A program made the position numbers and the translations under genes. From Nitrospinaceae bacterium (lineage in GTDB: Bacteria; Nitrospinota_A; UBA7883; JAJDBK01): a DNA stretch of 64,000 bases. The stretch spans positions 62,001-126,000 of the forward strand of contig JAJDBK010000011.1 of assembly GCA_029261405.1 (NCBI GenBank), read 5' to 3'. Every line of letters begins with the position of its first letter. Within the stretch, counting starts at the first letter, position 1. Of this stretch, positions 40,203-64,000 are shown in pieces. The notes below the pieces were generated by a model that ran no database searches, was not told the origin of the DNA, and was given only the letters and a program-made list of their open reading frames with translations.

Positions 40203-42023
40203 TTACGGAGTAGCGGAGACTTCCGCCGATATGGCGCTCTCCTTGCCCGAAACCGTTGATGTCATCACATAATAGTAGGTTGTTCCGTCTGTCAGCCCTG
40301 TATGGGTATAAGGTGAAGTGACCCCGGTTATCCTGTTGTCCGACGTTGTAACGCTCCCGGTGGTATTCCAGTAAAGGTTGTAGGAGGTCGCCCCTGTGAC
40401 CGCACTCCAGACAAGCTCCACCTTCTGCCATCCCGCTGTGGCGGTCACTCCTGTTGGCACAAGCCCCACGGTAACCGAGACCTCGCTTGACAGTCCACTC
40501 TCCGTATCGTTGGTGATGGATGATACGGCGTAGTAGTAGGTCGATCCGTTGGTCAGCCCTGTCTGGGTGTAGGGTGAAATGGCTCCGGTTATCCTGTTTG
40601 CCGAGGTGGTGACACCTGCTGTTGTACTCCAGTAGATGTTGTACGAATCCGCGCCGGAGACCGCATCCCAGGAAATGATCGCGTCGCCGTCCGCCGTTGT
40701 TACCGATACGTTTGTCGGTTTGGATGAGGCGCCCACACCGGCTGAGACTTCGGTGGAGCCTGGACCTTCCGATCCGCTAACGGTTGCGGTTACGATATAG
40801 TAGTAGGTAGACCCATCGGTAAGCCCGGAATGGCTGTATGGCGATGTTACATCGGCGATCTTGTTGTCGCTGGTTGTAACGCTACCGCTATTATTCCAGT
40901 AGATGTTGTACGAATCGGCGCTCGACACTGCGTCCCAGGTGATGGTGGTCTCTTCGGTTCCGACTGTCACACTGACGTTAGTAGGGGCGGCCGAAGCCGT
41001 GGCGAAGACTTCGGAGGAGATTCCGGTTTCTCCTGTGGCTGTTTCCGCCGTGACGACGTAGTAGTATGTGGTTCCGTTGACGAGCCCCGTATGTTTATGG
41101 GGGGATGTGGCGCTGGTTATCCTGTTGTCTTCCGTTGTGACACCTGAGAGGGTTGCCCAATACACGTTATAGGAAGTGGCGTCGGCAAGAGCGTCCCATG
41201 TAAGGGTAATCTCTCCGTCACCTGATACGGCGGCAAGGTTGGTTGGCGACCCGGTCTCCGCAGTGGTTGTCGGCGTGGCGCACATCTGCACTCCGAAGGG
41301 GCTTTGCCTGATACTCTCTTTCCACTGGGTGACGGCGAAACAGTATTCGACACTTGCTGTAAGACCGGTTACTGTGTAACTGGTCAGTCCGGCCCATATG
41401 TAGTCTATATAGGGGGAATCGATGGTCACATCGCCGCTATCCTCGTAGTGGACCAGGTAGTTTAATGTTATAAAATCTGATGATGTATAAAGGATCAGAT
41501 CGTTCGGCGCGTCCCATGTCACCTTGACCTGCTCCTGCCCTTCCGTGACAGCGGTAACGTTGACCGCATCCGGCGCGATTCCGCTGTAGTCTTCACCACT
41601 ATCGGTGGTATCTGTGACACCGATTGTGGCGCCCATCAATGTGCCGATGGTCGATACGCCGCTACAGTTTCGTTTCATCAGGAAATAGTAGGTCTTGTCG
41701 TTGGTAAGACCGAATACCGTGTAGGGGCTCGATATGTTCTCGAAGGTTGCGCCATCGTTCAAGGTGGACCAGTTTGTGGTTGTAAGGCTCGATTCAGACG
41801 CCATGAAAAGGTAGAAGGTACACTCACCTGCGACTGCGTTGATCCGGGCTGTGGAGGATTCGTCCCAGGTCAGTTTGGCGTAACCATCACCGGTCGTGAT
41901 GGCAAGGTCGAAAGCCGACCCGGTAGAACCGGAAGAGCCGCCACTGCTGGTGGAGTCGTCTCCGTCACCGCCACACGCTGTCAACATGGCTAAAATGGAA
42001 ACAATGAGAGCGACTTTTCTCAA
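40203..42023 (-). CDS. lipoprotein with six fibronectin type III domains
   Basis: 606 aa. I chose the TTG at 42023-42021 because CAGGAG lies nine bases upstream and the result is a clean signal peptide (MRKVALIVSILAMLTAC) with a lipobox; a longer frame to 42107 gives no signal. A Gly/Asp/Ser linker leads to six fibronectin type III repeats of about 85-100 residues. Repeats 3-6 are very alike (SYNIYWSTTAGVTTS, SPYTHTGLTDGTTYYYV), a sign of recent internal duplication. It is probably a surface-exposed adhesin or ligand-binding protein. Confidence 0.82.
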   Translation of the reverse strand: MRKVALIVSILAMLTACGGDGDDSTSSGGSSGSTGSAFDLAITTGDGYAKLTWDESSTARINAVAGECTFYLFMASESSLTTTNWSTLNDGATFENISSPYTVFGLTNDKTYYFLMKRNCSGVSTIGTLMGATIGVTDTTDSGEDYSGIAPDAVNVTAVTEGQEQVKVTWDAPNDLILYTSSDFITLNYLVHYEDSGDVTIDSPYIDYIWAGLTSYTVTGLTASVEYCFAVTQWKESIRQSPFGVQMCATPTTTAETGSPTNLAAVSGDGEITLTWDALADATSYNVYWATLSGVTTEDNRITSATSPHKHTGLVNGTTYYYVVTAETATGETGISSEVFATASAAPTNVSVTVGTEETTITWDAVSSADSYNIYWNNSGSVTTSDNKIADVTSPYSHSGLTDGSTYYYIVTATVSGSEGPGSTEVSAGVGASSKPTNVSVTTADGDAIISWDAVSGADSYNIYWSTTAGVTTSANRITGAISPYTQTGLTNGSTYYYAVSSITNDTESGLSSEVSVTVGLVPTGVTATAGWQKVELVWSAVTGATSYNLYWNTTGSVTTSDNRITGVTSPYTHTGLTDGTTYYYVMTSTVSGKESAISAEVSATP

Positions 42024-42320
42024 CAGTGGTAACTCCTGAATCGGTTTTATAACGCTGGCATCTTTTATATATCGTCCAAGAATATCAGGGAGATGATTAG
42101 CAGTCAATCAAGGTCGGCTCCTCCAGCGGGGAAATGTCCTCTTAAACAACACTTTTTCATCTTCGTGTCCGTAAACAGGACAAGGGTGAGTGTAATAAGG
42201 CGAGCCTGTTAATATCAGGTCTGGCGCCGATTTTGAAGATACGATAATACAATAGCTTATTCAAGGCCGGAGCAGGCGGTGAAACGCGAGGCTCACCAAA
42301 ACCTATCAGGAGGAACTTTC
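42024..42320. other. divergent intergenic region of two lipoprotein genes
   Basis: About 300 bases between the starts of two divergent lipoprotein genes, so it must hold both promoters. A small hairpin (GGTGA 42278-42282, TCACC 42293-42297) lies close to the ribosome site AGGAGG (42308-42313) of the right-hand gene. AT-rich stretches occur at 42055-42080 and 42235-42260. I see no known riboswitch. Confidence 0.4.
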
Positions 42321-43394
42321 ATGAACCGACCAGGTGTCATACCGATTCTACTACTAATAACCTTGACCATCTCGGCGTGTGGAGGAGGGGGATCGACTTC
42401 GAGCGATGGAGATCCCGGAACCACAACCGCTACAACCAAAATCAGTGGAAACCTCACCGGGGATACCGCGAATGTTGGTGGTGTCGTGGCCACCAGCGCC
42501 ACTACCAACTCCACCTACCTTGCTACATTGGGTTCAACTGCCAGAACGAACGGCTTTAGCGGGGCGCCCATAACCTTCTCCGTGGAGGTGCCGACCGGAG
42601 ACACATACTGGGTTAGCGTTGTAGATTCAGATAACAAGTCGATGGGAACGGTCAGTTTCGATATCGACGTAACCGGCAGCGCTACTACCGACACCATTCC
42701 GGTTATGGACGAGACTGACATCGATTTTGGCGATTGTCCGATCCCGGACGGAACAGGCGCGGATGGTGTCGGAACTGTGGAGATCGTTCCGGGGAAAAAC
42801 CCGCTACAGCATATGGATCAGGACCATGACGGAATGAGTGACTGGGAAGACAGCGACGACGACAACGATGGTGTGGACGATCAACACGATGGGGATCACC
42901 ATGGAAACATGGGACACGATCCGATAGTAGATTTTGGTCCGGGCGATGGTGGCGCCGGCGGTGACATGGGTGGCGGTGACATGGGCGGTGGTGACATGGG
43001 CGGCGGTGTTTGTGATAACAGCGTTGATGCCACTTGCGATAACTCTGGCGGAGGAACTGGCGATCCCGATCCCGACACCGGCCAGAATCCTGGTGACGGC
43101 TCCTGTGACAACACCGTAGACGGAACCTGCGATAGTGGCGGCGATACGGGCGGAGGGCAGAATCCTGGTGACGGCTCCTGTGACAATGCCGTGGACGGAA
43201 CCTGCGATAGTGGCGGCGATACGGGCGGAGGGCAGAATCCTGGTGACGGCTCCTGTGACAATGCCGTAGACGGAACCTGCGATAGTGGCGGTACGGGTGG
43301 AGGTGTTGTTGATCCCGCTCCTGGAGATGTCGTCTGTCGAGACGGAATTGACAACGGATGCGCGACAGAACCGGCGCCGGACGGAACTGTGTGA
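42321..43394 (+). CDS. lipoprotein with acidic calcium-type and Cys-rich tandem repeats
   Basis: 357 aa from the ATG at 42321 (AGGAGG seven bases upstream). The signal peptide ends TISAC (lipobox). Residues 30-150 hold a small beta-rich domain. An Asp/His stretch (DQDHDGMSDWEDSDDDND) looks like a thrombospondin type 3 calcium-binding repeat. MGGGD repeats follow, then three tandem 25-residue repeats (CDNxVDGTCDSGG). The tail is acidic with further Cys. Cys may form disulfides. It looks surface-exposed with a repeat-based stalk; the function is unknown. Confidence 0.78.
   Translation: MNRPGVIPILLLITLTISACGGGGSTSSDGDPGTTTATTKISGNLTGDTANVGGVVATSATTNSTYLATLGSTARTNGFSGAPITFSVEVPTGDTYWVSVVDSDNKSMGTVSFDIDVTGSATTDTIPVMDETDIDFGDCPIPDGTGADGVGTVEIVPGKNPLQHMDQDHDGMSDWEDSDDDNDGVDDQHDGDHHGNMGHDPIVDFGPGDGGAGGDMGGGDMGGGDMGGGVCDNSVDATCDNSGGGTGDPDPDTGQNPGDGSCDNTVDGTCDSGGDTGGGQNPGDGSCDNAVDGTCDSGGDTGGGQNPGDGSCDNAVDGTCDSGGTGGGVVDPAPGDVVCRDGIDNGCATEPAPDGTV
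43083..43304 (+). repeat. 75-base in-frame tandem repeat in the Cys-rich lipoprotein
   Basis: Units start at 43083, 43158 and 43233, a period of 75 bases or 25 residues; the last is one codon short. The units differ at only a few bases. A diverged partial unit precedes them. Copy-number change would keep the frame. Confidence 0.85.
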
Positions 43395-50253: not shown

Positions 50254-50318
50254 GGCTCAGTATAGACCGGGTTGAATCCGTGATACAATCCAACGTTTTA
50301 TTGATATATTCGAGCGAT

Positions 50319-51428
50319 ATGCGAATTGTAATCGTTTTTGGCACCCGGCCTGAGGCCATCAAGATGATTCCGGTGGTGGACGCTTTCCGGGACGAAGGTC
50401 GCCACGAGATAAAGGTGTGCGTAACCGGTCAGCATCGTCAGATGCTCGATCAGGTGACGGAGCTTTTCGGGACGAAGGTCGATCACGACCTTTCGATCAT
50501 GAAACCGAATCAGGATCTCACCGACATTACCTCCGCCGTCCTGATAGGGATGCGCTCTTTTTTAAAAGATTGGCGACCCGACTGGTTGTTGTGTCAGGGG
50601 GATACCACTACCGCCATGGCGTCGGCGCTCGCCGCTTTCTACGAGAAGGTATCGGTGGGGCATGTGGAGGCTGGTCTTAGGACGGGCAATATATATTCCC
50701 CGTGGCCGGAGGAGATGAACCGGAAGATCATAAGCGCCATAGCTACCGATAGCTACGCCCCCACAGCACAGTCGAGGCAAAACCTGCTCAATGAGGGGAT
50801 TTCAGACGAAAAAATTGTTGTCACCGGCAACACTGTCATAGATAGTCTTCTTAAGGTGGCCGGGCGGATAGATAACGATGAATCGTTACGCAAATCGCTC
50901 GACGAAAAGTTCCCGTTTCTCGACCCGTCAAAGAAACTTGTGCTGGTGACAGGTCACAGGCGTGAAAATTTCGGACCCGGCTTTGAGCGGGTCTGCAACG
51001 CGCTGAAAAGCATTGGAGAGCGGGGGGACACGCAGGTTGTCTACCCGGTCCATCTGAATCCGAACGTGCAGGAGCCGGTGAACAGGATTTTAGGCGGCCA
51101 GAAAGATATCGCGCTGACCGATCCGCAAGACTACCTGCCCTTCGTCTACCTGATGAAACGCTCCACCATCATAATCAGCGACTCGGGCGGAGTGCAGGAG
51201 GAGGCGCCTTCTCTCGGTAAGCCGGTGCTTGTCACTCGCGACACCACAGAACGACCGGAAGGGGTGACCGCCGGAACGGTTCTGCTGGTTGGAACCGATG
51301 GTGGCCGACTGAAGGCCGAAGCTGAAAAACTACTCGACGATAACGTCGCTTACGAAAAAATGTCCGCCGCCCACAACCCGTATGGAGACGGGCGAGCGGC
51401 TTACCGGATTACGAAGAGGTTTGAATAG
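50319..51428 (+). CDS. wecB: UDP-GlcNAc 2-epimerase
   Basis: 369 aa from the ATG at 50319; an in-frame start at 50280 adds a poor N-terminus. Non-hydrolysing epimerase that makes UDP-ManNAc. Motifs include VIVFGTRPEAIKMIPV, QGDTTTAMASALAAFY, HVEAGLRTG and SDSGGVQEEAPSLGKPVL. The stop shares one base with the wecC start. It is the first gene of the plus-strand polysaccharide run. Confidence 0.96.
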   Translation: MRIVIVFGTRPEAIKMIPVVDAFRDEGRHEIKVCVTGQHRQMLDQVTELFGTKVDHDLSIMKPNQDLTDITSAVLIGMRSFLKDWRPDWLLCQGDTTTAMASALAAFYEKVSVGHVEAGLRTGNIYSPWPEEMNRKIISAIATDSYAPTAQSRQNLLNEGISDEKIVVTGNTVIDSLLKVAGRIDNDESLRKSLDEKFPFLDPSKKLVLVTGHRRENFGPGFERVCNALKSIGERGDTQVVYPVHLNPNVQEPVNRILGGQKDIALTDPQDYLPFVYLMKRSTIIISDSGGVQEEAPSLGKPVLVTRDTTERPEGVTAGTVLLVGTDGGRLKAEAEKLLDDNVAYEKMSAAHNPYGDGRAAYRITKRFE

Positions 51429-52678
51429 TGAACAGTATGTATACACGGGTTTCGGTTGTAGGGCTCGGATATATCGGCCTGCCTACGGCGGTGGTTCTCG
51501 CCAGCCAGGGTGTGGAGGTCGTTGGTGTTGATGTGAACGAAAACGCCGTGTCGATGATAAATGGGGGTAAAGCGCATATCGTGGAGCCGGACCTTGATGC
51601 GCGGGTGAAAGCTGTGGTGTCGAGCGGAAAGTTGCGCGCCACATCCACACCTGAAAAGGCGCAGGCGTTCATACTCGCGGTGCCGACTCCGTTCAAGGAT
51701 GGGGGAGTCCCCGACTTGTCGTATATCGAATCGGCGGCCAGATCAATTGCCCCTCAGCTCGAAAAAGGGAATCTTGTTATTCTCGAATCGACATCGCCTG
51801 TGGGCACAACAGAAAAACTTGCGGGATGGTTATCCGACGCTCGACCCGATCTCTCTTTTCCGGGGCTAAGCGACAACATACCCGATGTAAATATCTGCTA
51901 CTGCCCGGAGCGGGTTTTGCCCGGTTATGTATTAAAAGAGCTGGTGGAAAATGACCGGATAATAGGGGGGCTTACCGCCGATTGTTCTGTCAGGGCCGGG
52001 GCCTTGTACAAGATTTTCGTCAAGGGCCAGCTACTTATGAGCGATTCGAGGACGGCGGAGATGGCGAAGCTGACGGAGAACGCTTACCGGGACGTGAATA
52101 TCGCCTTTGCCAACGAGCTTTCGATCATCTGCGACAAGATCGACGTTAATGTATGGGAGCTTATCAGGCTTGCAAACCGTCATCCGAGGGTCAATATTCT
52201 ACAGCCCGGTCCTGGCGTTGGCGGTCACTGCATCGCTGTCGATCCCTGGTTCATTGTGCATTCCGCTCCGGAAGAGGCGAAACTGATCGCGTGCGCCCGC
52301 GCGGTCAATGACGGTAAACCGGCCGCTGTGGTTGAGAAGGTAAAAAAAGCGGCGGAGAAATTGAAAAATCCGGTGATAGCCTGTCTGGGACTTGCTTACA
52401 AAGCCGATATCGACGACTTGCGGGAGAGTCCCGCAGTGGGAATTGTCGAACTTTTGGTCAAAGATGGAACCGGCGAACTGATGGTGGTGGAGCCGCATGT
52501 AAAAGACCTTCCTGAAAGGCTTTCCGGGCTTCCCGGCGTAAAACACTCAGGTATGGAGAGCGCCATAAAAAAGGCGGACATAGTGTTGCTACTGGTCGAT
52601 CATTCTGTATTCAGGAAGATCCCGTACGATTCGTTAAGAGATAAGGTTGTCATAGATACACGGGGTATATTTAATTGA
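51428..52678 (+). CDS. wecC: UDP-N-acetyl-D-mannosamine dehydrogenase
   Basis: 416 aa. It oxidises UDP-ManNAc to UDP-ManNAcA with two NAD+. It has a Rossmann start (VSVVGLGYIGLPTAVVLASQ), CPERVLPGYVLKEL with NDRIIGG, and the catalytic-Cys motif GPGVGGHCIAVDPWF; these fit the WecC branch better than UDP-glucose dehydrogenase. The start is GTG. The next gene starts within its stop. Confidence 0.93.
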   Translation: MNSMYTRVSVVGLGYIGLPTAVVLASQGVEVVGVDVNENAVSMINGGKAHIVEPDLDARVKAVVSSGKLRATSTPEKAQAFILAVPTPFKDGGVPDLSYIESAARSIAPQLEKGNLVILESTSPVGTTEKLAGWLSDARPDLSFPGLSDNIPDVNICYCPERVLPGYVLKELVENDRIIGGLTADCSVRAGALYKIFVKGQLLMSDSRTAEMAKLTENAYRDVNIAFANELSIICDKIDVNVWELIRLANRHPRVNILQPGPGVGGHCIAVDPWFIVHSAPEEAKLIACARAVNDGKPAAVVEKVKKAAEKLKNPVIACLGLAYKADIDDLRESPAVGIVELLVKDGTGELMVVEPHVKDLPERLSGLPGVKHSGMESAIKKADIVLLLVDHSVFRKIPYDSLRDKVVIDTRGIFN

Positions 52679-54813
52679 AACAGGCCCTGATCTTGGGTGG
52701 CGGGGTTGTCGTAGAAGAGGTTCCGGCGCCTCAAGTGGGCCGCAAAAATATCCTTGTCCGTGTCGAAAGCTCCTGCGTCAGTGTGGGCACTGAACTTGGC
52801 AGTGTAAAAACATCAGGCACACCCTTCTACAAACGTGCGTTACAACAGCCTGAAAATGTAAAACGGGTAATCGGAATGGCCCGTGATTACGGTATCAAAC
52901 GGACCGTTGAAAAAGTCCGGGGTCGGCTGGCGACAGGCATCCCTGTCGGTTATTCAGCGGCGGGTGTGGTTATCGAAGTGGGCGCCGATGCGGAAGGTTT
53001 TGCTGTCGGCGACAAGGTAGCTTGCGCCGGGGCCGGAATCGCCAATCACGCCGAGATAATTGATGTGCCGGTCAATCTTGCGGTCCGGATACCTGATGGT
53101 GTCGGCTTTCCACAAGCCTCCACTGTGGCTTTAGGTTCCATAGCCCTGCAAGGTGTGCGAAGGGCGGCGCCTACCCTTGGTGAGACGGTGGCGGTTATCG
53201 GGCTTGGGGTTTTAGGCCGGATTACAGCCCAGGCTCTTGCGAAAAACGGATGTAGAGTCATCGGGACCGATCTCGATAAAAAAAGGTTACAGGCGGCTCT
53301 TGATGACGGTATGGAGTACGCTGTCGATCCATCGTCCGCCGATTTCGTTGAACGGTGCCACACCATCACAGGCAAGGTTGGGGTCGACGCCGTGATAATA
53401 ACCGCCGCCACCGCCAGTCACGATGTGGTGAGTCAGGCGATGAAAGCGTGTCGCAAAAAGGGGCGTGTAGTTCTGGTGGGGGATGTAGGCCTGAATCTTG
53501 ACCGGGCCGACTTTTACGCCAAGGAACTCGATTTTTTCATCTCCTCCTCATACGGCCCCGGCAGGTACGATCCACTCTACGAACAGGAGGGGCTCGACTA
53601 TCCGGTGGCGTATGTGCGCTGGACAGAAAACCGGAACATGGCCCACTACCTTAAACTGCTCTCCGGGGGGAGTATTACACTCGATGGCATGTACGAGGAG
53701 TACCTGATCGACAATGCCCCCACCGCCTACGACAAACTGAAGGGGAGCGGTGAAAAACCGGTCATGGTGATCCTCACCTATCCTGAGCGGAAAGAGGCTC
53801 CGCGCCGTTTGATTTCGGTCAAGGAGCGTGTCGTGGTTACAAAAAAGAGTGGCGCCATTGGTGTGGCTCTTGTGGGGTCTGGTGGATTCGCCCTTTCGAC
53901 CCATCTGCCGAACATGATGCGAATGAGGGATAATTTCGATCTGCGCCACGTCATGAGCAGGACCGGGGCAACGGCTATGGCTGTGGCAAAACAGTATGGC
54001 GCCAAAAAAGCCTCTACCGACTACGAGGAGGTTCTATCCGATCCGGCGGTCGATCTTGTCATTATAACCACCCGTCACGACAGCCACGGCGACATGGTTA
54101 TGAAGGCTCTTATAGCGGGCAAGAATGTATTCGTGGAGAAACCGCTCACTATCGACGAGAGTGACCTGGATCGGATCGAGTCGTTTTATCTGGCGAACGA
54201 AAACGGGCCGCTACTTCTGGTAGGTTACAACCGTCGTTTCTCTCCAGCCATAAACCTTGCTGTGGAGACGTTAAAAGGCCGCTCCACACCGATGATGGTG
54301 AACTACCGGATGAACGCAGGTTACCTGTCGCCGGAACACTGGACCCGGAGTGCGGAGGGGGGCGGGCGGAACATCGGCGAAGCGTGCCATATCTACGATC
54401 TTTTTAATCGGCTGACAGGATCCAGGGTTGTTTCTGTTAAGGCGATGTCTATCTCTCCGGGTGGGAAAAATAACTGGGGTAGTTCGGACAATTTTGCCGC
54501 ATCCATATCATATGAAGACGGCAGTCTGTGTACCTTGACCTACACCGCATTAGGCTCCCCCGAATACCCGAAGGAGCGGATGGATATCTTCGCAGATGGC
54601 GTGGTTATAACCCTCGACGATTACAGGTCGCTAAAAGTGGCTGGTTGCAAGGGTGTATCGTGGAACAGTCAGGTTACAAACAAGGGGCACTTCAGGGAGC
54701 TTGCGGCGTTGCGTAACTCATTGACCGATGGCGCTAAATGGCCCATCCCCCTTGAGGAGCAGTTATCCTCCTCCCGGGTAGCCTTCGAGGTGGAAAGACA
54801 AATCCACCGATAA
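52675..54813 (+). CDS. bi-domain oxidoreductase (zinc-type alcohol dehydrogenase plus Gfo/Idh/MocA)
   Basis: 712 aa. Residues 1-370 are an MDR-type dehydrogenase (PVGYSAAGVVIEVG, Rossmann VAVIGLGVLGRITAQ, SSSYGPGRYDP). Residues 390-712 are a Gfo/Idh/MocA oxidoreductase (VALVGSGGFALSTHLPNM, NVFVEKPLTI). Together they are often found in surface polysaccharide loci, where they are thought to modify nucleotide sugars or lipid-linked sugars. It is a TTG start overlapping the wecC stop by four bases. A longer paralogue at 60473 carries an extra domain that is absent here. Confidence 0.93.
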   Translation: MKQALILGGGVVVEEVPAPQVGRKNILVRVESSCVSVGTELGSVKTSGTPFYKRALQQPENVKRVIGMARDYGIKRTVEKVRGRLATGIPVGYSAAGVVIEVGADAEGFAVGDKVACAGAGIANHAEIIDVPVNLAVRIPDGVGFPQASTVALGSIALQGVRRAAPTLGETVAVIGLGVLGRITAQALAKNGCRVIGTDLDKKRLQAALDDGMEYAVDPSSADFVERCHTITGKVGVDAVIITAATASHDVVSQAMKACRKKGRVVLVGDVGLNLDRADFYAKELDFFISSSYGPGRYDPLYEQEGLDYPVAYVRWTENRNMAHYLKLLSGGSITLDGMYEEYLIDNAPTAYDKLKGSGEKPVMVILTYPERKEAPRRLISVKERVVVTKKSGAIGVALVGSGGFALSTHLPNMMRMRDNFDLRHVMSRTGATAMAVAKQYGAKKASTDYEEVLSDPAVDLVIITTRHDSHGDMVMKALIAGKNVFVEKPLTIDESDLDRIESFYLANENGPLLLVGYNRRFSPAINLAVETLKGRSTPMMVNYRMNAGYLSPEHWTRSAEGGGRNIGEACHIYDLFNRLTGSRVVSVKAMSISPGGKNNWGSSDNFAASISYEDGSLCTLTYTALGSPEYPKERMDIFADGVVITLDDYRSLKVAGCKGVSWNSQVTNKGHFRELAALRNSLTDGAKWPIPLEEQLSSSRVAFEVERQIHR

Positions 54814-54815
54814 TT

Positions 54816-56795
54816 ATGTGCGGTGTAAACGGTCTGTTTTGTTTCGATGGTTCGGCTGGGGCTGACGAATCTGTTCTGATATCGATGCGGGACACCATGA
54901 TCTCCCGTGGGCCGGATGGCGCCGGGGTATGGGTGTCGCCCGATAAAACCGTTGGATTCGGGCATCGACGTCTCTCGATCATCGACCTTGCCGATCTTGC
55001 GGGCCAACCGATGAGCGCGGCTGACGGGCGAGTCACCATCACCTATAACGGAGAGATCTATAACCATCTTGCTTTACGAAAAGAACTGCAAACCGCAGGA
55101 CACACTTTTATAACCGACCATAGTGATACGGAAGTTCTGATCCACGGCTTTGAGCAGTGGGGCATCGAAGGTCTTCTACAACGGATCGAAGGCATGTTCG
55201 GTTTCGGGCTGTGGGATGATAACGATAAAAAGCTATACCTCGTCCGGGACCGTGTCGGTGTGAAACCGCTCTATTTCTCTACCCGTGAGGGTAAGTTGTT
55301 GTTTGCGTCGGAGATAAAAGCGATTCTCGCATATCCCGGCTTTGTTCCCGATATCGACCCTGTGGCCATGAGCCATTACCTCTCTTTCATGACAACTCCC
55401 GCGCCTTTAACCATGTTCAGCGGAGTTTTTAAACTGCCGGGGGGCACATACCTGTCGGTCGTCAGAGGGGGCGAGATTGTTTCTACCAGATATTGGGACG
55501 CGATTCCTTCTGGCGAAGTTATGAATGGCGCCGATGATCGGTCTCATGTGTATGGAGTTTTGCAAAAACTCACCGAGTCGGTGGAAAAACGGATGATGTC
55601 GGATGTTGGATTCGGCGCGTTTCTTTCCGGGGGCGTTGACTCCACCACCAATGTCGCCCTTATGAGCAGGTATACAGACAGGCCGGTAAAAACGTTCACT
55701 GTCGGTTTTTCCGATCACAAGGAGTTAAACGAACTCGACCACGCCAGGTACGCCTCGAAACTTTTTGCCACGGAACATCACGAGGTGCTGATAAAGGAGG
55801 ACGACATGACCGGTTATATCGACTCCCTGGTGCATCATCAGGACGAACCGATAGCCGACTGGGTCTGCGTCCCCTTATATTTCGTATCGAAACTCGCCAA
55901 AGAGAATGGCGTAACGGTGGTACAGGTGGGGGAGGGCGCCGACGAGCAGTTTGCGGGCTACGATGGTTACCTTCGATATCTTGACCTGCATAAAAAATAC
56001 TGGACTCCCTTCAACCGATATACACCCGCCTTTGCAAGACGCCTCACCGCCACTACGTTGGATTCCCTCTCCTGGTTGCACCCCAAGTTGGGAAATTACG
56101 CCGAGATCGCCCATCGGGCCGGAAATGATCGTGAACTGTTCTGGAGCGGCGCCATGGTCTTTTGGGACCTGATGAAAAGGAGGCTGGTTACGGGTAAACT
56201 GACTTCAGCAAGGGATGAACGGTTAATAAAGAGCGGGCTTCTGCCGGAGTCGTATCTTGCAGGTGACTCCTTTTCTGTGGTCGATTCATTTTTTACACAA
56301 CTGAAAAATAACCGACCAGACGCAGACCAGTTAACGAAGATGATCTACAGCGAGTTTCGCTTGAGACTCCCGGAACTTCTTCTGATGCGGGTTGATAAAA
56401 TCACCATGTCAACGTCGGTGGAGGCGCGGGTGCCGTTTCTCGATCATAAACTCGTGGAGTTTTCCATGAACATTCCGACGGCTCAGAAGATCGCCGGTGG
56501 GAGAGCAAAAAATATATTAAAAGAGGCTGTGAAAGGTCTTATCCCGGAGGAGATCATAAACAGGAAAAAGGTCGGATTTGGCGCTCCCATGAGCCAGTGG
56601 TTACGCAGTGGTTTCGGGATCATGGCAAAAGAGACGACGCTAAACAGCGGGCTTATGGATCGGGGATATTTTGACACAGATTTTATAGCAGGAATGTTCG
56701 ATGCGCACATGAGCGGCAAGGGGGAGTACAGCGTACAACTGTGGACTCTTTTTAACCTTTGCTCATGGTATGATTACTGGATCGACCGACGATAG
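54816..56795 (+). CDS. asnB: asparagine synthase (glutamine-hydrolysing) family amidotransferase
   Basis: 659 aa. The N-terminal nucleophile Cys2 (MCGVNG) and glutaminase domain (about 1-210) are followed by an ATP-PP synthetase domain with FLSGGVDSTTNVAL. In free metabolism it makes asparagine. In O-antigen loci relatives of this family amidate sugar carboxylates. Here it lies two bases after the oxidoreductase and downstream of wecC, which makes a uronic acid, so amidation of ManNAcA is a reasonable guess. Confidence 0.92.
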   Translation: MCGVNGLFCFDGSAGADESVLISMRDTMISRGPDGAGVWVSPDKTVGFGHRRLSIIDLADLAGQPMSAADGRVTITYNGEIYNHLALRKELQTAGHTFITDHSDTEVLIHGFEQWGIEGLLQRIEGMFGFGLWDDNDKKLYLVRDRVGVKPLYFSTREGKLLFASEIKAILAYPGFVPDIDPVAMSHYLSFMTTPAPLTMFSGVFKLPGGTYLSVVRGGEIVSTRYWDAIPSGEVMNGADDRSHVYGVLQKLTESVEKRMMSDVGFGAFLSGGVDSTTNVALMSRYTDRPVKTFTVGFSDHKELNELDHARYASKLFATEHHEVLIKEDDMTGYIDSLVHHQDEPIADWVCVPLYFVSKLAKENGVTVVQVGEGADEQFAGYDGYLRYLDLHKKYWTPFNRYTPAFARRLTATTLDSLSWLHPKLGNYAEIAHRAGNDRELFWSGAMVFWDLMKRRLVTGKLTSARDERLIKSGLLPESYLAGDSFSVVDSFFTQLKNNRPDADQLTKMIYSEFRLRLPELLLMRVDKITMSTSVEARVPFLDHKLVEFSMNIPTAQKIAGGRAKNILKEAVKGLIPEEIINRKKVGFGAPMSQWLRSGFGIMAKETTLNSGLMDRGYFDTDFIAGMFDAHMSGKGEYSVQLWTLFNLCSWYDYWIDRR

Positions 56796-56844
56796 AATGT
56801 TAATTAAATAAGGTTCTGACACAACCGCTTGTTGCGCCACATCT

Positions 56845-58089
56845 ATGCTTGACGACAACTTTTTCTTCTCCCGTATAAAGCGGCGTATCGCCAGAGTTTT
56901 ACGCCTGGGCGGGAATGCCGATCCGGTCAAGGAGGATCACACGCCCGTAGCCCTCTGTCCTTTCCCCTGGTCATACATGATGATCCTGCCGGACGGTTTT
57001 GTGCGGACCTGTTGTTACAATGTTACGAGGCTGGGCAACATAAACGAAAGTTCGTTTGATGAGATATGGAATGGCGAGAAGTATATTGCGCTCCGTTCGG
57101 CCCTTGTAAACGGTGATTACGAATCGTCGGGATGTGTCGGGTGTCCCCTTTACGAACGCTCGGGGGTGCAGATAGAGACCGCCACGCAAAACCGGCTTCT
57201 CTTCTCCGACGGAACACCCGACCAGATAGAAAACGCGAGGAAAATCCATCAGGAGATGGTTGATAAAAAAACGACGCTCGAAGGAAAACCGGTGGCGTTG
57301 GCGTTGGAGCTTTCCCACGCTTGCAACTACGACTGTGAGTTTTGTTTCCAGCAGGATAAAACCATCGGAATAAAAATAGACAGGCTTGAGGGGATTAAGG
57401 CCGACTGTCTCACCTCGGTGCGGGAGCTTATTATGACTGGCGGCGACCCGCTGGCTTACAAGGAGAATATCAGGCTTCTTGAAAGTTTTACAGAAGAGCA
57501 GTCGGAAAAACTGTTCGTGGAGTTTTACACCAACGGCGCCCTGCTCGACCGTCATTGGGAGCTACTGGAAAAGTTTCCGAATGTTTTCGTGGTGATAAGT
57601 CTGCATTCCCTTGACGATAAGACCTACCGCAGAATAATGAAGACAACAACACCGGTCAAAAGGGTTGTGGAGAATATCGACCACTTCCTCGACGCGGGGA
57701 AAGATCGGCATGGTTGGCGTGTGAGCGTTACGAACATACTGATGAAAAGCACCGTCACGGAGGCGTATGAACTGGCGAAATTCGCGGTGGAACGGGATTG
57801 CGAACTGAGTTTTACATACCTGCACGGTGACATGGAGGAGAACATCTACCTCTACCCGTTTAATATGGAAGACGAGTCGAAAGTTTTAGAGGAACTCGAC
57901 CGTGCAATTTCCTACCTCTCGTCAAAGGGCGAAAAGTATAGTGTGGCGCACAACAATCTAAAGCACCTTAAGGAAAAACTCTTTAACGACCCCAGGCCAT
58001 CCAGGGAAGATTATGAAAAGTGGAAACAGGATGGTGAGAACGAAACCTGCGCATACGACAAATGTTATGAAATGTTCAGCCAGAGATAA
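56845..58089 (+). CDS. radical SAM protein with N-terminal SPASM-like domain
   Basis: 414 aa. Residues 38-100 hold Cys38, Cys56/57, Cys97 and Cys100 around DGFVRTCCYNVTRLGNI, which is the SPASM-type auxiliary cluster domain. It comes before the radical SAM core with C160-x3-C164-x2-C167 (CNYDCEFC). SPASM domains normally follow the core. The MTGGDP segment of the core is normal. The substrate is unknown; the neighbours point to a sugar or glycan. It lies 49 bases after asnB. Confidence 0.9.
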   Translation: MLDDNFFFSRIKRRIARVLRLGGNADPVKEDHTPVALCPFPWSYMMILPDGFVRTCCYNVTRLGNINESSFDEIWNGEKYIALRSALVNGDYESSGCVGCPLYERSGVQIETATQNRLLFSDGTPDQIENARKIHQEMVDKKTTLEGKPVALALELSHACNYDCEFCFQQDKTIGIKIDRLEGIKADCLTSVRELIMTGGDPLAYKENIRLLESFTEEQSEKLFVEFYTNGALLDRHWELLEKFPNVFVVISLHSLDDKTYRRIMKTTTPVKRVVENIDHFLDAGKDRHGWRVSVTNILMKSTVTEAYELAKFAVERDCELSFTYLHGDMEENIYLYPFNMEDESKVLEELDRAISYLSSKGEKYSVAHNNLKHLKEKLFNDPRPSREDYEKWKQDGENETCAYDKCYEMFSQR

Positions 58090-58101
58090 GATCTGGAACC
58101 G

Positions 58102-60414
58102 ATGAAACAGCCCGACACTTTTTTGCCACATTGGGGATATGTAAAACGCGCGCTCCACTCCGTCTGTAAGGAGTCGCGGTTTATCAATACTGTGGTGTCG
58201 GGGCTTGAGATGCGTTTCGGAGTGGAGGAGGTGGTCAGTATGCCGCAGTTCATGGCGGTATGCCCCACGGGACAGTGTAACGCCATCTGCTCATTCTGCT
58301 CGGTGACGACCAACCGGGACGGCATAACAAAAAAACAACTGCCGTTCGACAAGATGGTGGCTATGATCGCTCCCGCCAGGAAAACCGTTCACAGTTTCGG
58401 CGTGGAAGGCAACGGCGAACCGACGTTGTACGATCAGTTCGACGAGATGATAAATCTGCTCACCGACGAAGGGGCGAAGATTTACCTGATTACCAACGGT
58501 GAACGGCTGACCGGACCCCAGATCGACAAGCTGACCTCCGGCGTTACCAGTTTTGTGAATTTTTCCCTCAACTCAGCTACAGCGGCTACCCATCGCAAGG
58601 TGATGGGCTTAAAACGGTTCGATACGGTGGTGTCGAATATCAAGGATCTTATAAACAAAAGACCACATCCCAAATGGCCGCAGGTATCGGCGTCGTTTGT
58701 TGTGACCGCCGATAACGTGCATGAGGTGCGCGACTTTCTCCGGCTGGCGGGCGAAGAGATCGGGGTGAACCCGGTGATGGTGCGCCCCTTATCGGAGATT
58801 GCCAACGAAGGTGGATCGGTGGAGGATACCCGTAGCCTCGTACCGTATGAGAGCGATATCCGGGATATGCTCGAATCGGTAAAAGAGTATTTTGAGGATG
58901 TTGCGCCGACTTTCGAGGTGGGGCTGGAACCGTCGAATTTCAAGGTTTTCCGGCAGGATCCGCTACAAAAAGTCGTAGCCCCCACAGGATACGAAGGCAG
59001 GTTGCTGGCGCCGAGACGTGGCGACTGGAATGTGGCGCAGGAGAGCGTATCGGCAAGCTGGTATCTCGACAGTGTGACGATTTCGTGCGGTGAGCGGACC
59101 TCCGAAGGCGCGATGATCAAAAGCAACCCGATCCCGGTTAACAGAGAGAGTGATCTTGTTTTCGAGGCGAAACTCGGTTGCGACACTCCATCGCAGGTGA
59201 CCGTTTTGATACTCTCCCCGGACGGCGCAACGGTTATTGCCGAAAAGCGGATCGATTTTTGTGAGAAGGGTGAAACGGATAACGTTGAGATCGCCTTTAA
59301 CACCACAGATAATAAAACCGTGATCATCTCTGTCGCCTCTCCTGGTGGAGCGGCGCAGTTTAATATCGACTTTCTTCGACTCAGATCGATTCAGGTAATA
59401 CCCCAGCAGGAGTTTGTCCTGCCCGGTTCGAGCCGGTGGGAGGTTTCGTCTCCCGGCGCCGAGGTGAAGTGGACAGGCAACAGTGTTGCGTTCAAATGGA
59501 GCGGCGAGCCGTCCCGCTACCTTCTGTCGAGCTATTTTACCGAGTGTTTGCAGGGGGAGGATATTGTCATCCCCCTTTTGAGCGATATAAAATCGGGCAG
59601 TGTCGGTCTTGGTATTTTGACCGAAGACGGGTCAAACTGGATTCAGACCATCACCCTTGAACCGGGAAAACATGAATACAAACTCTCGATCAACAGCGGA
59701 ACCAACAGAAAAGTACGAATAGTCTTCTTCTCCCATGGTGAGGAGGATCTGGTCGGATCAGTGACATGGACCGACGGCATGGCCGAGGCTGTCAGGTTTG
59801 ATGAAAACTGGGACAGGAAACCCGATTCAAAAGCGCGTAAAACCTTCGGAATCCTGATAAACCCCATTGAAGGCCCGATCACCATAGAGCTTCTCCAGAC
59901 CAAGGCGGTAAGCGCAGTCAAGCTGGTCGGGTATGTCCTGCTCTACTCCGGCAGGAAGCTAAAGGAGTTTATCAAGGGCCCGAAAATAAAATATTATTGC
60001 CAGAAACCGTGGCGTGACCTGAACAACCTGACGGTCGATGGTCGTCTCGATGTCTGCTGTATCGCCACAGGGGAGAGCCAGAAAGGTTACGCCCTTGGCA
60101 ACATGTTCACCGACAAATTTCAGGATTCGTGGAACGGCGGGATGGCCAGAAAGTTTCGCAAAACAGTCAACACGTCAGAAAAACTGCCTCCGTGCGAAAG
60201 ATGCCCCATGGCTATGGACAACGTCACGGTGTCGTTTCATTACGACAGAAGCGTTAACAGGTTTAACGAGGCGGTATCGGAAATCATGGAGACTGCGCCG
60301 GGTGGTGAAAGGATCACAACGGTATTAACGAAAGTTTTCAGGCTGTTCATGGCTGTCGTCAGCAGGCTGAAATCTGTTTTCGCCGACCAGCTTACATTCA
60401 GAAAGTTATGGTAA
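58102..60414 (+). CDS. radical SAM protein with two inserted beta modules and C-terminal SPASM-like domain
   Basis: 770 aa. The radical SAM core (about 50-290) has C59-x3-C63-x2-C66 (CNAICSFC) and VEGNGEPTLYDQF. Two beta-rich modules follow, A at about 300-432 and B at about 437-563; B contains GSVGLGILTEDGSNWIQT. At about 630-705 is a SPASM-like domain (C633, C652/653, C698, C701; NLTVDGRLDVCCIATGES). Module B is clearly like the insertion in the oxidoreductase at 60473. I infer a radical enzyme that acts on a glycan held by these modules. The gene starts 12 bases after the previous radical SAM gene. Confidence 0.9.
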   Translation: MKQPDTFLPHWGYVKRALHSVCKESRFINTVVSGLEMRFGVEEVVSMPQFMAVCPTGQCNAICSFCSVTTNRDGITKKQLPFDKMVAMIAPARKTVHSFGVEGNGEPTLYDQFDEMINLLTDEGAKIYLITNGERLTGPQIDKLTSGVTSFVNFSLNSATAATHRKVMGLKRFDTVVSNIKDLINKRPHPKWPQVSASFVVTADNVHEVRDFLRLAGEEIGVNPVMVRPLSEIANEGGSVEDTRSLVPYESDIRDMLESVKEYFEDVAPTFEVGLEPSNFKVFRQDPLQKVVAPTGYEGRLLAPRRGDWNVAQESVSASWYLDSVTISCGERTSEGAMIKSNPIPVNRESDLVFEAKLGCDTPSQVTVLILSPDGATVIAEKRIDFCEKGETDNVEIAFNTTDNKTVIISVASPGGAAQFNIDFLRLRSIQVIPQQEFVLPGSSRWEVSSPGAEVKWTGNSVAFKWSGEPSRYLLSSYFTECLQGEDIVIPLLSDIKSGSVGLGILTEDGSNWIQTITLEPGKHEYKLSINSGTNRKVRIVFFSHGEEDLVGSVTWTDGMAEAVRFDENWDRKPDSKARKTFGILINPIEGPITIELLQTKAVSAVKLVGYVLLYSGRKLKEFIKGPKIKYYCQKPWRDLNNLTVDGRLDVCCIATGESQKGYALGNMFTDKFQDSWNGGMARKFRKTVNTSEKLPPCERCPMAMDNVTVSFHYDRSVNRFNEAVSEIMETAPGGERITTVLTKVFRLFMAVVSRLKSVFADQLTFRKLW

Positions 60415-60433
60415 CGCGCCAAAGGGCGGTATG

Positions 60434-60442
60434 TGGTAAAAT
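60434..60442 (+). promoter_or_regulatory. extended -10 element before the second oxidoreductase gene
   Basis: TGGTAAAAT is an extended -10 (TGn plus TAAAAT, 5/6) about 31 bases ahead of the ATG at 60473. No good -35 is seen. It may give extra transcription inside the operon. Confidence 0.35.
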
Positions 60443-60472
60443 CCACTGTTTTTCACCAATTAACGGAAAATA

Positions 60473-63112
60473 ATGCGTCAAATACTGCTCAATGGTAGCG
60501 GGGCGGTCATAGCCCGGACACCAAGACCGGCGGTTGAACGGGGCCACGTCCTGATCCGGGTTCGCAGGTCGATGATAAGCGTCGGCACCGAAATTGCCTC
60601 CATACGGCCTTCCACAGCCGAAGTTCCTGTGACAGAACAGGCGAAAGAGTACGCTGGTCTGGCCCGAACCTATCTCGGACTCGCCATGAAAAATCCGGGC
60701 AAAGCTGTTCGCCGCGTCGGGAAAATAACAAAAAGCGTCATTAACGCTCTTGCCGTAAAATCGAGCGACCCACAGGGGGAGAGCGTGGAGCGGCAGGGGG
60801 ATGTGGTCTGGTCGAAGTCGTCTGCGAAAAGCATGGAGAGAGTCGGCTCCTCCCTTGAGATAGTTACCGATAACTCCTCAGGTGGTTATCAGGCGTTATC
60901 CCAGCTATTTACGTTAGAAGAGGGAAAAACTCCCATCGTTCGCGTATCAGGTGAGGTAAAAGAGGGAATTGTTTCTATCGGCCTGCTCAACGACGACGGT
61001 ACCAAATGGCTCGGACAACGATCATTCGATAAAGGCCGGTTCGACGATAAGCTGATTTTCGACCCGCAAGGGAGAGAAGGATTCACCCTCGTGGTGGCAA
61101 ACGCCGGGCTTGAGGTCGAGTCTAAAGTCACCATCGAAAACGTGGAGGTCTTTTTAGGCTCTCCCACAGAGGGTGGACTCCCCTTAAGCGAGCTTGAGGA
61201 TCAGGGGTGGAACGTCGGATACTCAGCCGCAGGTGAGGTTATTGCCATCGGAGCCGGGGTGACCGGGTTCGTGGTGGGGGATAAAGTCGCGTGCGGTGGC
61301 GCCGGGAAAGCCAACCACGCCGATTACGTCTCTGTCCCCCGCAACCTCGTATGCGGGATACCGGACGGCGTTTCGATGCGGGAGGCGGCCACCACCACCG
61401 TTGGAACCATAGCCCTGCAAGGAGTCAGACGTACAGCTCCGCAACTAGGGGAGAGTGTGGCGGTTCTCGGACTCGGACTGATAGGCCAGATCACGACCCA
61501 GCTACTCAGAGCCTCCGGGTGCAACGTCATCGGGCTTGACCTGAGCGAAAAGAGGGTCGCAAGAGCCAAAACCCTCGGCATGACCGATGGCGCCAGCGAC
61601 GAAACCGAATTCAGGGCGATCATACGCGACAGAACAGGCGGCAAAGGCGTTGACCGCACAGTCATAACAGCGGCCACAAAATCGGATGCGGTAATAAACC
61701 TCGCCATGGAGATAACCCGCATGAAAGGCAGGGTCGTCATAGTCGGCGATGTAGGCCTTAATGTTGCGAGGGCGCATTTCTACAAAAAAGAGATCGACCT
61801 TATGATGAGTTCCTCCTACGGACCGGGGAGGTACGACCGGTCTTACGAAGAGGATGGAATCGACTACCCGCAAAGTTATGTGCGCTGGACACTCAACCGG
61901 AACATGGGCGCTTATATGGATGCAGTAGCCACGGGCAGGCTTAACGTCACAGCCCTTATCGACCGGGAAATTACCATCGACAAGGCCCCGGAGCTATATT
62001 CTGAACTCGCCAAAGGGACAGGAGACGCCCCGCTGGGTGTGATAATCGAATACCCGGATGACAAACGGGAGCTTTCGGAGCCAGCCGAGTCATGCTCCAT
62101 AAAAATTCGTGGAAGCAGAAACGCGCCCGACTGGCCGTTACGTTACGCGCTGGTAGGCGCTGGCGCTTTCGGAACATGTATGCTGGTCCCGCAGATGGCC
62201 AAAAGGAAAGATCGTTTCTTTTTAAGAGGGGTGGTAAGCCGCGACGCCGTGCGTGGAGGCAACTTTGCCAGAGCGAATCAGGTGGAGCTTTTTACATCCA
62301 GCATCGACGAAGTTCTGGCGGACCCCGACATAGATCTTGTGGTGATAGCGACCCGTCACAGTGACCACGCCGAGCAGGTAATAAAAAGCCTTGAAGCGGG
62401 GAAACACGTTTTTGTGGAAAAACCGCTGGCCATGACATGGAAAGAACTCGACCGGATCGTGGAGCTGTATAGCGGGCTTGAGGTCAGGCCCTCACTTATG
62501 GTTGGGTTCAACCGGCGCTTCTCCCCGGCGATGACGGCCCTGATGTCGGCCATAGAAGGGCGGCGGTCCCCCCTGATAATGCACTACCGGTTAAACGGCG
62601 GTTTCATTCCAGCAGACAGTTGGATTCACGGTCCGCAAGGTGGGGGAAGAAATATCGGTGAGGCGTGCCATATGTACGACGTTTTCCGGTCTCTGGCAAA
62701 AGGGCCTGTGACCGCAGTCACCGCATCCGCCATCAACCCTGGCGATACCCCCTACCAATGCAACGACAACTTCTGCGCTACAGTTACTTATGAGGATGGA
62801 AGCGTCGGCAACCTTGTCTATACAGCCCTTGGACCTAAACAGGGCTTACCGAAAGAACGGGTGGAGGTCTACTGCGATGGTGAGGTATATATACTTGATG
62901 ACTACAAATCGTTGACAAGAGCAAGCGACGGCGAAATTCTGTGGCAGAGTGATGAGGTGGACAAGGGGCATTTTTCGGAACTGAGTCTCTTTGGGGACTC
63001 TATCGCCCAAAACGGAGAACCGCCCATATCTTTCGATGATATCGTCGAAACGACCGCAGTGGCTCTTACAGTCGAGGATCTTATAACTGGCGTGGAAACC
63101 TTGCATGAATAA
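60473..63112 (+). CDS. bi-domain oxidoreductase with inserted beta module
   Basis: 879 aa. The same two-part plan as the paralogue at 52675: dehydrogenase (to about 540; NVGYSAAGEVIAIG, AVLGLGLIGQITTQ, SSSYGPGRYDR) and Gfo/Idh/MocA domain (about 555-879; YALVGAGAFG, HVFVEKPLAM). The difference of 167 residues is mostly an insertion at about 103-230, right before the GYSAAG segment. It matches module B of the radical SAM protein upstream (EGIVSIGLLNDDGTKW against SGSVGLGILTEDGSNW). It probably acts on the same bound glycan or carrier. The stop overlaps the next start by eight bases. Confidence 0.92.
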   Translation: MRQILLNGSGAVIARTPRPAVERGHVLIRVRRSMISVGTEIASIRPSTAEVPVTEQAKEYAGLARTYLGLAMKNPGKAVRRVGKITKSVINALAVKSSDPQGESVERQGDVVWSKSSAKSMERVGSSLEIVTDNSSGGYQALSQLFTLEEGKTPIVRVSGEVKEGIVSIGLLNDDGTKWLGQRSFDKGRFDDKLIFDPQGREGFTLVVANAGLEVESKVTIENVEVFLGSPTEGGLPLSELEDQGWNVGYSAAGEVIAIGAGVTGFVVGDKVACGGAGKANHADYVSVPRNLVCGIPDGVSMREAATTTVGTIALQGVRRTAPQLGESVAVLGLGLIGQITTQLLRASGCNVIGLDLSEKRVARAKTLGMTDGASDETEFRAIIRDRTGGKGVDRTVITAATKSDAVINLAMEITRMKGRVVIVGDVGLNVARAHFYKKEIDLMMSSSYGPGRYDRSYEEDGIDYPQSYVRWTLNRNMGAYMDAVATGRLNVTALIDREITIDKAPELYSELAKGTGDAPLGVIIEYPDDKRELSEPAESCSIKIRGSRNAPDWPLRYALVGAGAFGTCMLVPQMAKRKDRFFLRGVVSRDAVRGGNFARANQVELFTSSIDEVLADPDIDLVVIATRHSDHAEQVIKSLEAGKHVFVEKPLAMTWKELDRIVELYSGLEVRPSLMVGFNRRFSPAMTALMSAIEGRRSPLIMHYRLNGGFIPADSWIHGPQGGGRNIGEACHMYDVFRSLAKGPVTAVTASAINPGDTPYQCNDNFCATVTYEDGSVGNLVYTALGPKQGLPKERVEVYCDGEVYILDDYKSLTRASDGEILWQSDEVDKGHFSELSLFGDSIAQNGEPPISFDDIVETTAVALTVEDLITGVETLHE

Positions 63113-64000
63113 ATCAGAATATATCTACATCGATGGCTCCCTTACATGGTCGGGGCTGTTAACAAACGACGAACTGGGAGCTTATACCGAACGGCACAAG
63201 ATCGAGCTGAAAGTTCCCGAACTCTCCCGCATTGACAACCTGGAGGCGGTATACGGCGATTCGGGCGCCAATGGTGTTGTTGTCGGCATGAACCACGGCT
63301 ACCCGGAGAGGGCTATCCTGAAATTTTCCCGTCAGGTGATCCATGAAGGTGGAAAAGTCTTTTACCACTGGCCGAAAGAGAGCGCCGTTGAGGTGATCGA
63401 CAATGAGCGGGTGACAAGCTACTACATACTCATCTTTGTAGTGGCGGTTCATTGCAGAATGGTACAGCTTGGCGTAACCCGGATAGCCGGAAAGATCCTG
63501 CGCCGTCTGAAAATTTTACCGCCCGTCGGCGCCCCGGTTCAATATACCGAAGAGGTAGCGGCTCCTGTCAACCCGGTTGTGATAGCCGCCGCCAACGCCT
63601 CGGATGACGCTGACTCGATCTTTAACAATGCCAGTCCGGTACCCCTCGCGGTTTCAGATATACCGACTGAAAAAAACCGCCTTCCCGGTTGTGGTGTTTA
63701 TTTGAGGCTCGATTTCTGGGCGAAAATATCCTCCGGCGGGAGTTACGGACACACCTGTTACATCGCAAAGGAACTTGCGGCCACCACCGAAAGGTTTACC
63801 GCTTTTATGGCCAACGAATACGACCTGCTCGATGAGTTGGGAGTTCATCAGGTGGAGGTTCCATACGCTCCAAACTACTGCGGTGAAGAGAAAGACCTGG
63901 TGATGGCGACCGAGAGTTACGTCAAGGTCTTGCGTCCCGCCCTCGCCGCTTTGCGTCCCGCTTATATATACGAACGTATATGTCTCGGTAACTACACCAG
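63105..64000 (+). CDS. probable glycosyltransferase, 3' end outside window (partial)
   Basis: The ATG at 63105 overlaps the end of the oxidoreductase gene by eight bases and the frame is open to the edge (298 codons seen). The part seen starts MNKSEYIYIDGSLTWSGLL. Residues 200-298 include DFWAKISSGGSYGHTCYIA and MANEYDLLDELGVHQVEVP, which resemble the N-terminal acceptor half of GT4 enzymes; the GGSYGH segment is a typical glycine-rich loop. There is no signal peptide. The C-terminal donor half lies beyond the window, so the call is provisional. Confidence 0.65.
   Translation, partial: MNKSEYIYIDGSLTWSGLLTNDELGAYTERHKIELKVPELSRIDNLEAVYGDSGANGVVVGMNHGYPERAILKFSRQVIHEGGKVFYHWPKESAVEVIDNERVTSYYILIFVVAVHCRMVQLGVTRIAGKILRRLKILPPVGAPVQYTEEVAAPVNPVVIAAANASDDADSIFNNASPVPLAVSDIPTEKNRLPGCGVYLRLDFWAKISSGGSYGHTCYIAKELAATTERFTAFMANEYDLLDELGVHQVEVPYAPNYCGEEKDLVMATESYVKVLRPALAALRPAYIYERICLGNYT

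Follow-up and report, generated by a model that had tools for sequence, protein, structure and literature searches.

The closest described counterparts of the module studied here are CBM4/9 (CenC-like) modules and galactose-binding-like jelly rolls. Like them, it is predicted to fold as a jelly roll of ten strands and ~125 residues, is frequently present as tandem copies and is appended to catalytic domains. Unlike them, it has no Pfam sequence match, and its hosts are not glycan-degrading enzymes but enzymes of biosynthesis, some of them cytoplasmic and radical SAM enzymes among them. In Pseudomonas, AlgX combines an SGNH domain with its own C-terminal carbohydrate-binding module (PMC9734138). 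The genome of our study encodes an AlgX-like protein (P0010) that likewise has an ALGX SGNH domain (E 1e-21) followed by C-terminal modules and adjoins an MBOAT gene, but its two modules are tandem copies of the new family; we saw no sequence kinship to the AlgX module, since AlgX was not among the matches of a PDB profile search with the module. The C-terminal glycan-recognition domain of Wzt is likewise a beta domain, carried by a polysaccharide protein that this cluster encodes (Wzt_C in P0005); however, the middle region of Wzt, which resembled the module at first sight, was unrelated by profile comparison (probability 0.5) and was rejected as a further copy. Finally, one module carrier (P0002) belongs to the bi-domain oxidoreductases of polysaccharide loci, whose usual forms have no insertion.

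We examined the genes of the window, i.e. the whole stretch of 64,000 nucleotides analysed, and listed those of the cluster together with the three module copies (Table 1). The core of P0001 has the CxxxCxxC motif at residues 59-66 (cysteines 59, 63 and 66) and its SPASM domain spans residues 633-702, which places the protein in the radical SAM/SPASM class; modules A and B sit between the two. In P0002, the GroES-like part of the ADH domain is interrupted by an insertion of ~170 residues that contains module C; module-bearing relatives have theirs at the same site, between SxGTE and GYS. The sequence-only reading had located these modules at about residues 300-432 and 437-563 of P0001 and 103-230 of P0002; their refined limits are those of Table 1. 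It had also described a module-free oxidoreductase paralogue three genes upstream: the alignment agrees that this protein has no module, while the distance of three genes holds for the radical SAM gene and that to the oxidoreductase gene is four. Identity within the bi-domain family ranged from 37 to 66% over the shared part, and P0002 was closer to the module-bearing oxidoreductase of a distant genome, G315 (66%), than to its own neighbouring paralogue (47%).

Table 1. Genes of the polysaccharide cluster within the window and positions of the module copies.
Feature	Coordinates	Strand	Basis or remark
WecB-like UDP-GlcNAc 2-epimerase	50280..51428	+	named from sequence; 52-62% in three other clusters
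WecC-like UDP-ManNAc dehydrogenase	51428..52678	+	named from sequence; 42-61% in three other clusters
Paralogous bi-domain oxidoreductase without module	52675..54813	+	47% identity outside the insertion
AsnB-like glutamine amidotransferase	54816..56798	+	homologues near other clusters
Second radical SAM/SPASM protein, without modules	56845..58089	+	Pfam
Radical SAM/SPASM protein P0001, 770 aa	58102..60414	+	Pfam Radical_SAM 6e-13, SPASM 9e-8; cysteines; radical SAM family alignment
Module A (P0001 residues 296-428)	58987..59385	+	profile matches; ten strands as in B
Module B (P0001 residues 434-562)	59401..59787	+	z 11.5 against module C; leave-group-out 4e-16; AlphaFold jelly roll
Bi-domain oxidoreductase P0002 (ADH + Gfo/Idh/MocA) with inserted module, 879 aa	60473..63112	+	Pfam; alignment with six relatives
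Module C (P0002 residues 100-228)	60770..61156	+	pairwise against B; alignment; leave-group-out 9e-18
GT4 glycosyltransferase, start (602 aa)	63105..64000	+	continues past the window as L007:606-2414

Beyond the window, 3' of the GT4 gene, we found methyltransferase, heparinase-like, Wzm, Wzt and AsnB genes. The Wzt protein (P0005) contains both ABC_tran and Wzt_C domains, and the adjoining permease was named Wzm-like from its sequence; this pair of a Wzm-like permease and a Wzt ATPase with a C-terminal domain assigns the locus to the ABC-transporter-dependent polysaccharide clusters. The downstream AsnB (L007:11176-13179) is closer to the AsnB proteins of the other clusters than the one in Table 1. 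The same genome also encodes a third, module-free bi-domain oxidoreductase (L009:1705-7656) with a heparinase II/III-like gene nearby, so that members of these two families are again found together. Elsewhere in the window, two adjoining genes (40203-42107 and 42279-43394) encode predicted lipoproteins, one with fibronectin-III-like repeats and the other with near-identical Gly/Asp/Cys-rich repeats (GQNPGDGSCDNAVDGTCDSGGDTGG).

Modules A, B and C are copies of one shared, mobile module. The sequence-only reading had aligned B with the oxidoreductase copy over its whole length, and their Smith-Waterman score of 89 compares with a mean of 30 for shuffled sequences (z 11.5; 0 of 1000 shuffles reached it), with a BLASTP E of about 1e-6 (3e-5 between the whole proteins P0001 and P0002). 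Module A was not significant in pairwise comparison with B or C (z 1.1 and 1.9), so that the earlier wording of a looser match was fair. Its homology was settled by profiles: one holding distant copies and no A-type copy found A at E 1.1e-5, and A is a true copy because profiles without A-type copies find it. When each carrier group was held out in turn, A was recovered at 7e-8, and B and C at the values of Table 1; overall, held-out copies gave 1e-5 to 1e-26, with the sole exception of the Xanthobacteraceae A copy (0.09), while the best E among reversed ORFs was 0.23. The general motif comprises an early W, Y(Q/LL)xxS in mid-module and then Gx[VIL]x[IVLM]G[VIL]L...W; the closing SxVT of the pattern first proposed does not hold generally. 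Pfam gave no match in the module regions of P0001 and P0002 and no credible match for 25 module copies, CBM_4_9 and other CBM families included; NCBIfam had no credible model match for the module, and the PDB profile search returned one match (8xmz_A, 2e-4). As judged from these searches, the module is a previously unnamed domain family, missed by Pfam and NCBIfam.

The AlphaFold2 model of modules A and B (P0001 residues 289-570, nine-row alignment) had a mean pLDDT of 82, mostly 82-94 inside the modules. Each module forms the same ten-strand jelly roll in this model, and the strands of the two share columns of an independent sequence alignment. A single-sequence AlphaFold model of the whole oxidoreductase (pLDDT 36) showed eight strands in the module C region at low confidence, which is no reliable model of C, and the jelly-roll fold of C is therefore predicted by homology only. 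Foldseek against the PDB ranked surface glycan-binding protein B first for the A+B chain (E 1e-9), followed by Vip3 and EngBF, which have CBM-like domains, and a tandem CBM4; the viral library gave CBM-cenC and tail proteins. The TM-scores were low (0.3-0.4), in part an effect of querying both modules together as a single chain. The structure search, of a kind that had been proposed from the sequence, gave CBM4/CenC-like and other glycan-binding neighbours. Two features of carbohydrate-binding modules were found, a beta-sandwich/jelly-roll fold (for A and B, by AlphaFold and Foldseek) and the behaviour of a separately folding, non-catalytic attached domain, mobile over at least eight carrier types and, where modelled well, predicted as separate domains. 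The predicted fold points to carbohydrate binding; other ligands of jelly rolls with this fold are proteins, lipids and calcium.

The movable domain proposed by the sequence-only reading was borne out by many further glycan-modifying carriers in several genomes. In the window's genome these include P0010, ~95 kb away; between it and the window, on the same contig, lies a type VI secretion system-like cluster (L057:1-19500; ClpV-like, TssM-like and VipB-like genes, named by eye). The distant genome G315 has ten module places (one weak), and its carriers are two radical SAM proteins, an oxidoreductase, an AlgX-like, a GT-C-like and a GDSL-like (SGNH) protein and a small protein predicted to be anchored in the membrane. 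Outside the window's genome, copies also occur at the N terminus of a methyltransferase, as weak matches at the C termini of two large methyltransferases, on a sulfotransferase-like protein and on two further GT-C-like proteins. The predicted locations of the carriers span both sides of the membrane, with the radical SAM protein, oxidoreductase and methyltransferase in the cytoplasm and the AlgX-like and anchored proteins exported. One radical SAM protein of G315 (1151 aa; L075:14155-17610) has a duplicated N-terminal domain homologous to that of the window's GT4 protein (about residues 4-122; hhalign probability 98, E 2e-13), which by this comparison is a second domain common to unrelated enzymes of the system.

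The module is rare: it was detected in 3 of 385 sampled genomes and in 1 of 77 genomes of the phylum of G315, where two same-genus relatives had none. A pattern scan built on the lone window radical SAM protein gave no matches. A strict-pattern scan of 84,980 species genomes, which gives a lower bound, recovered three named relatives from Planctomycetota (L080), Xanthobacteraceae (L081) and Rhodospirillales (L082), all with modules on both the radical SAM protein and the oxidoreductase. Viral collections gave no matches, plasmids gave radical SAM core matches only, and we found no description of such module-bearing radical SAM proteins in the open-access literature.

The oxidoreductase family occurred in 32 of 289 sampled genomes, at 39 places. 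Only the window's place has a frame with the insertion (882 residues), the other frames being at most 800 residues and some partial, and a module scan of those 38 places found no copy. All five genomes with the radical SAM protein have the insertion in their oxidoreductase, in a small sample in which G315 was found through the module itself and three genomes are unbiased towards the insertion because they were found through the radical SAM protein alone. Another genome, G167, carries modules on two other proteins and has neither such a radical SAM protein nor a module in its oxidoreductases.

The five genomes with the pair are scattered over distant phyla. In three of the others (G315, the planctomycete and the Xanthobacteraceae genome), the pair is accompanied by homologues of WecB, WecC, GT4, the methyltransferase, the heparinase-like protein, Wzm, Wzt and AsnB, most of them with 40-70% identity. 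Over the stretch retrieved, the Rhodospirillales locus had no WecB/WecC and no Wzm/Wzt, so that Wzm/Wzt are present in 3 of the 4 other clusters; this conserved export cluster supports the earlier proposal of a polysaccharide-modifying system. The window's paralogous oxidoreductase and second radical SAM protein fall outside the shared set, the latter without a homologue in the other clusters compared. An IS1-like transposase ORF (L081:6751-7626, read by eye) was seen ~1.7 kb upstream of the Xanthobacteraceae radical SAM gene, which fits a mobile cluster.

On the module tree, copies grouped by carrier and not by genome (radical SAM A copies 100/99, four oxidoreductase copies 99/98), with many weak deep forks; carrier labels changed nine times, against 18.5 in shuffles. 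This grouping fits fusions that predate the spread of the cluster, which later moved as a unit. We infer horizontal transfer of the cluster because its distribution is patchy.

The reading that we consider reasonably probable is that of a carbohydrate-binding-module-like jelly-roll family that docks cluster enzymes of different chemistry on one glycan, which for the cytoplasmic enzymes would be a lipid-linked polysaccharide exported by the ABC transporter; by binding it, the shared module probably brings chemically unrelated enzymes to the same substrate. WecB/WecC would supply UDP-ManNAcA, which suggests ManNAcA in the glycan, and the cluster also encodes glycosyl transfer and ABC export through Wzm/Wzt. 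In Wzm/Wzt pathways, export begins only after the lipid-borne glycan has been completed in the cytoplasm, which gives tailoring enzymes of that compartment access to the polymer as such. The chain would be kept close to the radical SAM site by modules A and B, and to the ADH site of the oxidoreductase by module C. As a guess, the two enzymes might then epimerise residues of the bound chain, or oxidise or reduce them. The AlgX-like copies would do likewise for O-acetylation after export. Binding modules beside a radical SAM core and one inserted by an ADH domain fit tailoring at the polymer level. Rather more tentatively, and with somewhat less than even confidence, we propose that this one family addresses radical, redox, acetyl, methyl, sulfo and glycosyl transfer to a single cytoplasmically assembled polysaccharide, the radical SAM members acting on residues within the polymer and not on small precursors.

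It is unlikely that the module is instead a docking or scaffold domain, whose copies would build a membrane-located tailoring complex by contacts among themselves or with a shared partner, and would have no contact with sugar. Its presence on many different carriers of one cluster and the capacity of jelly rolls to bind proteins would suit such a role, but the carriers are predicted on both membrane sides, where a glycan is more easily shared than one protein partner, and the fold neighbours are mostly glycan binders. Binding of a nucleotide sugar or of the lipid-linked primer (the carrier end), and not of the polymer, strikes us as distinctly improbable: the cluster does make a nucleotide sugar, and Gfo/Idh/MocA and SPASM enzymes often use small substrates, yet the AlgX-like, GT-C-like and sulfotransferase-like carriers should have glycans as substrates or work outside the cytoplasm, in a space that has no nucleotide sugars. 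That the modules are unrelated beta-rich stretches, alike by convergence or chance, is hardly credible, as the weak direct pairwise scores of A are outweighed by the recovery of all held-out copies but one at values far below those of reversed ORFs, by the grouping of the tree by carrier type and by the strand-for-strand match of A and B.

With a glycan-binding module shared in this way, enzymes that modify a common glycan could be traced by sequence, and the module adds to the known domains an unnamed family absent from Pfam and NCBIfam. It also suggests that cytoplasmic enzymes, radical SAM proteins among them, could modify ABC-exported polysaccharides at the level of the entire chain.
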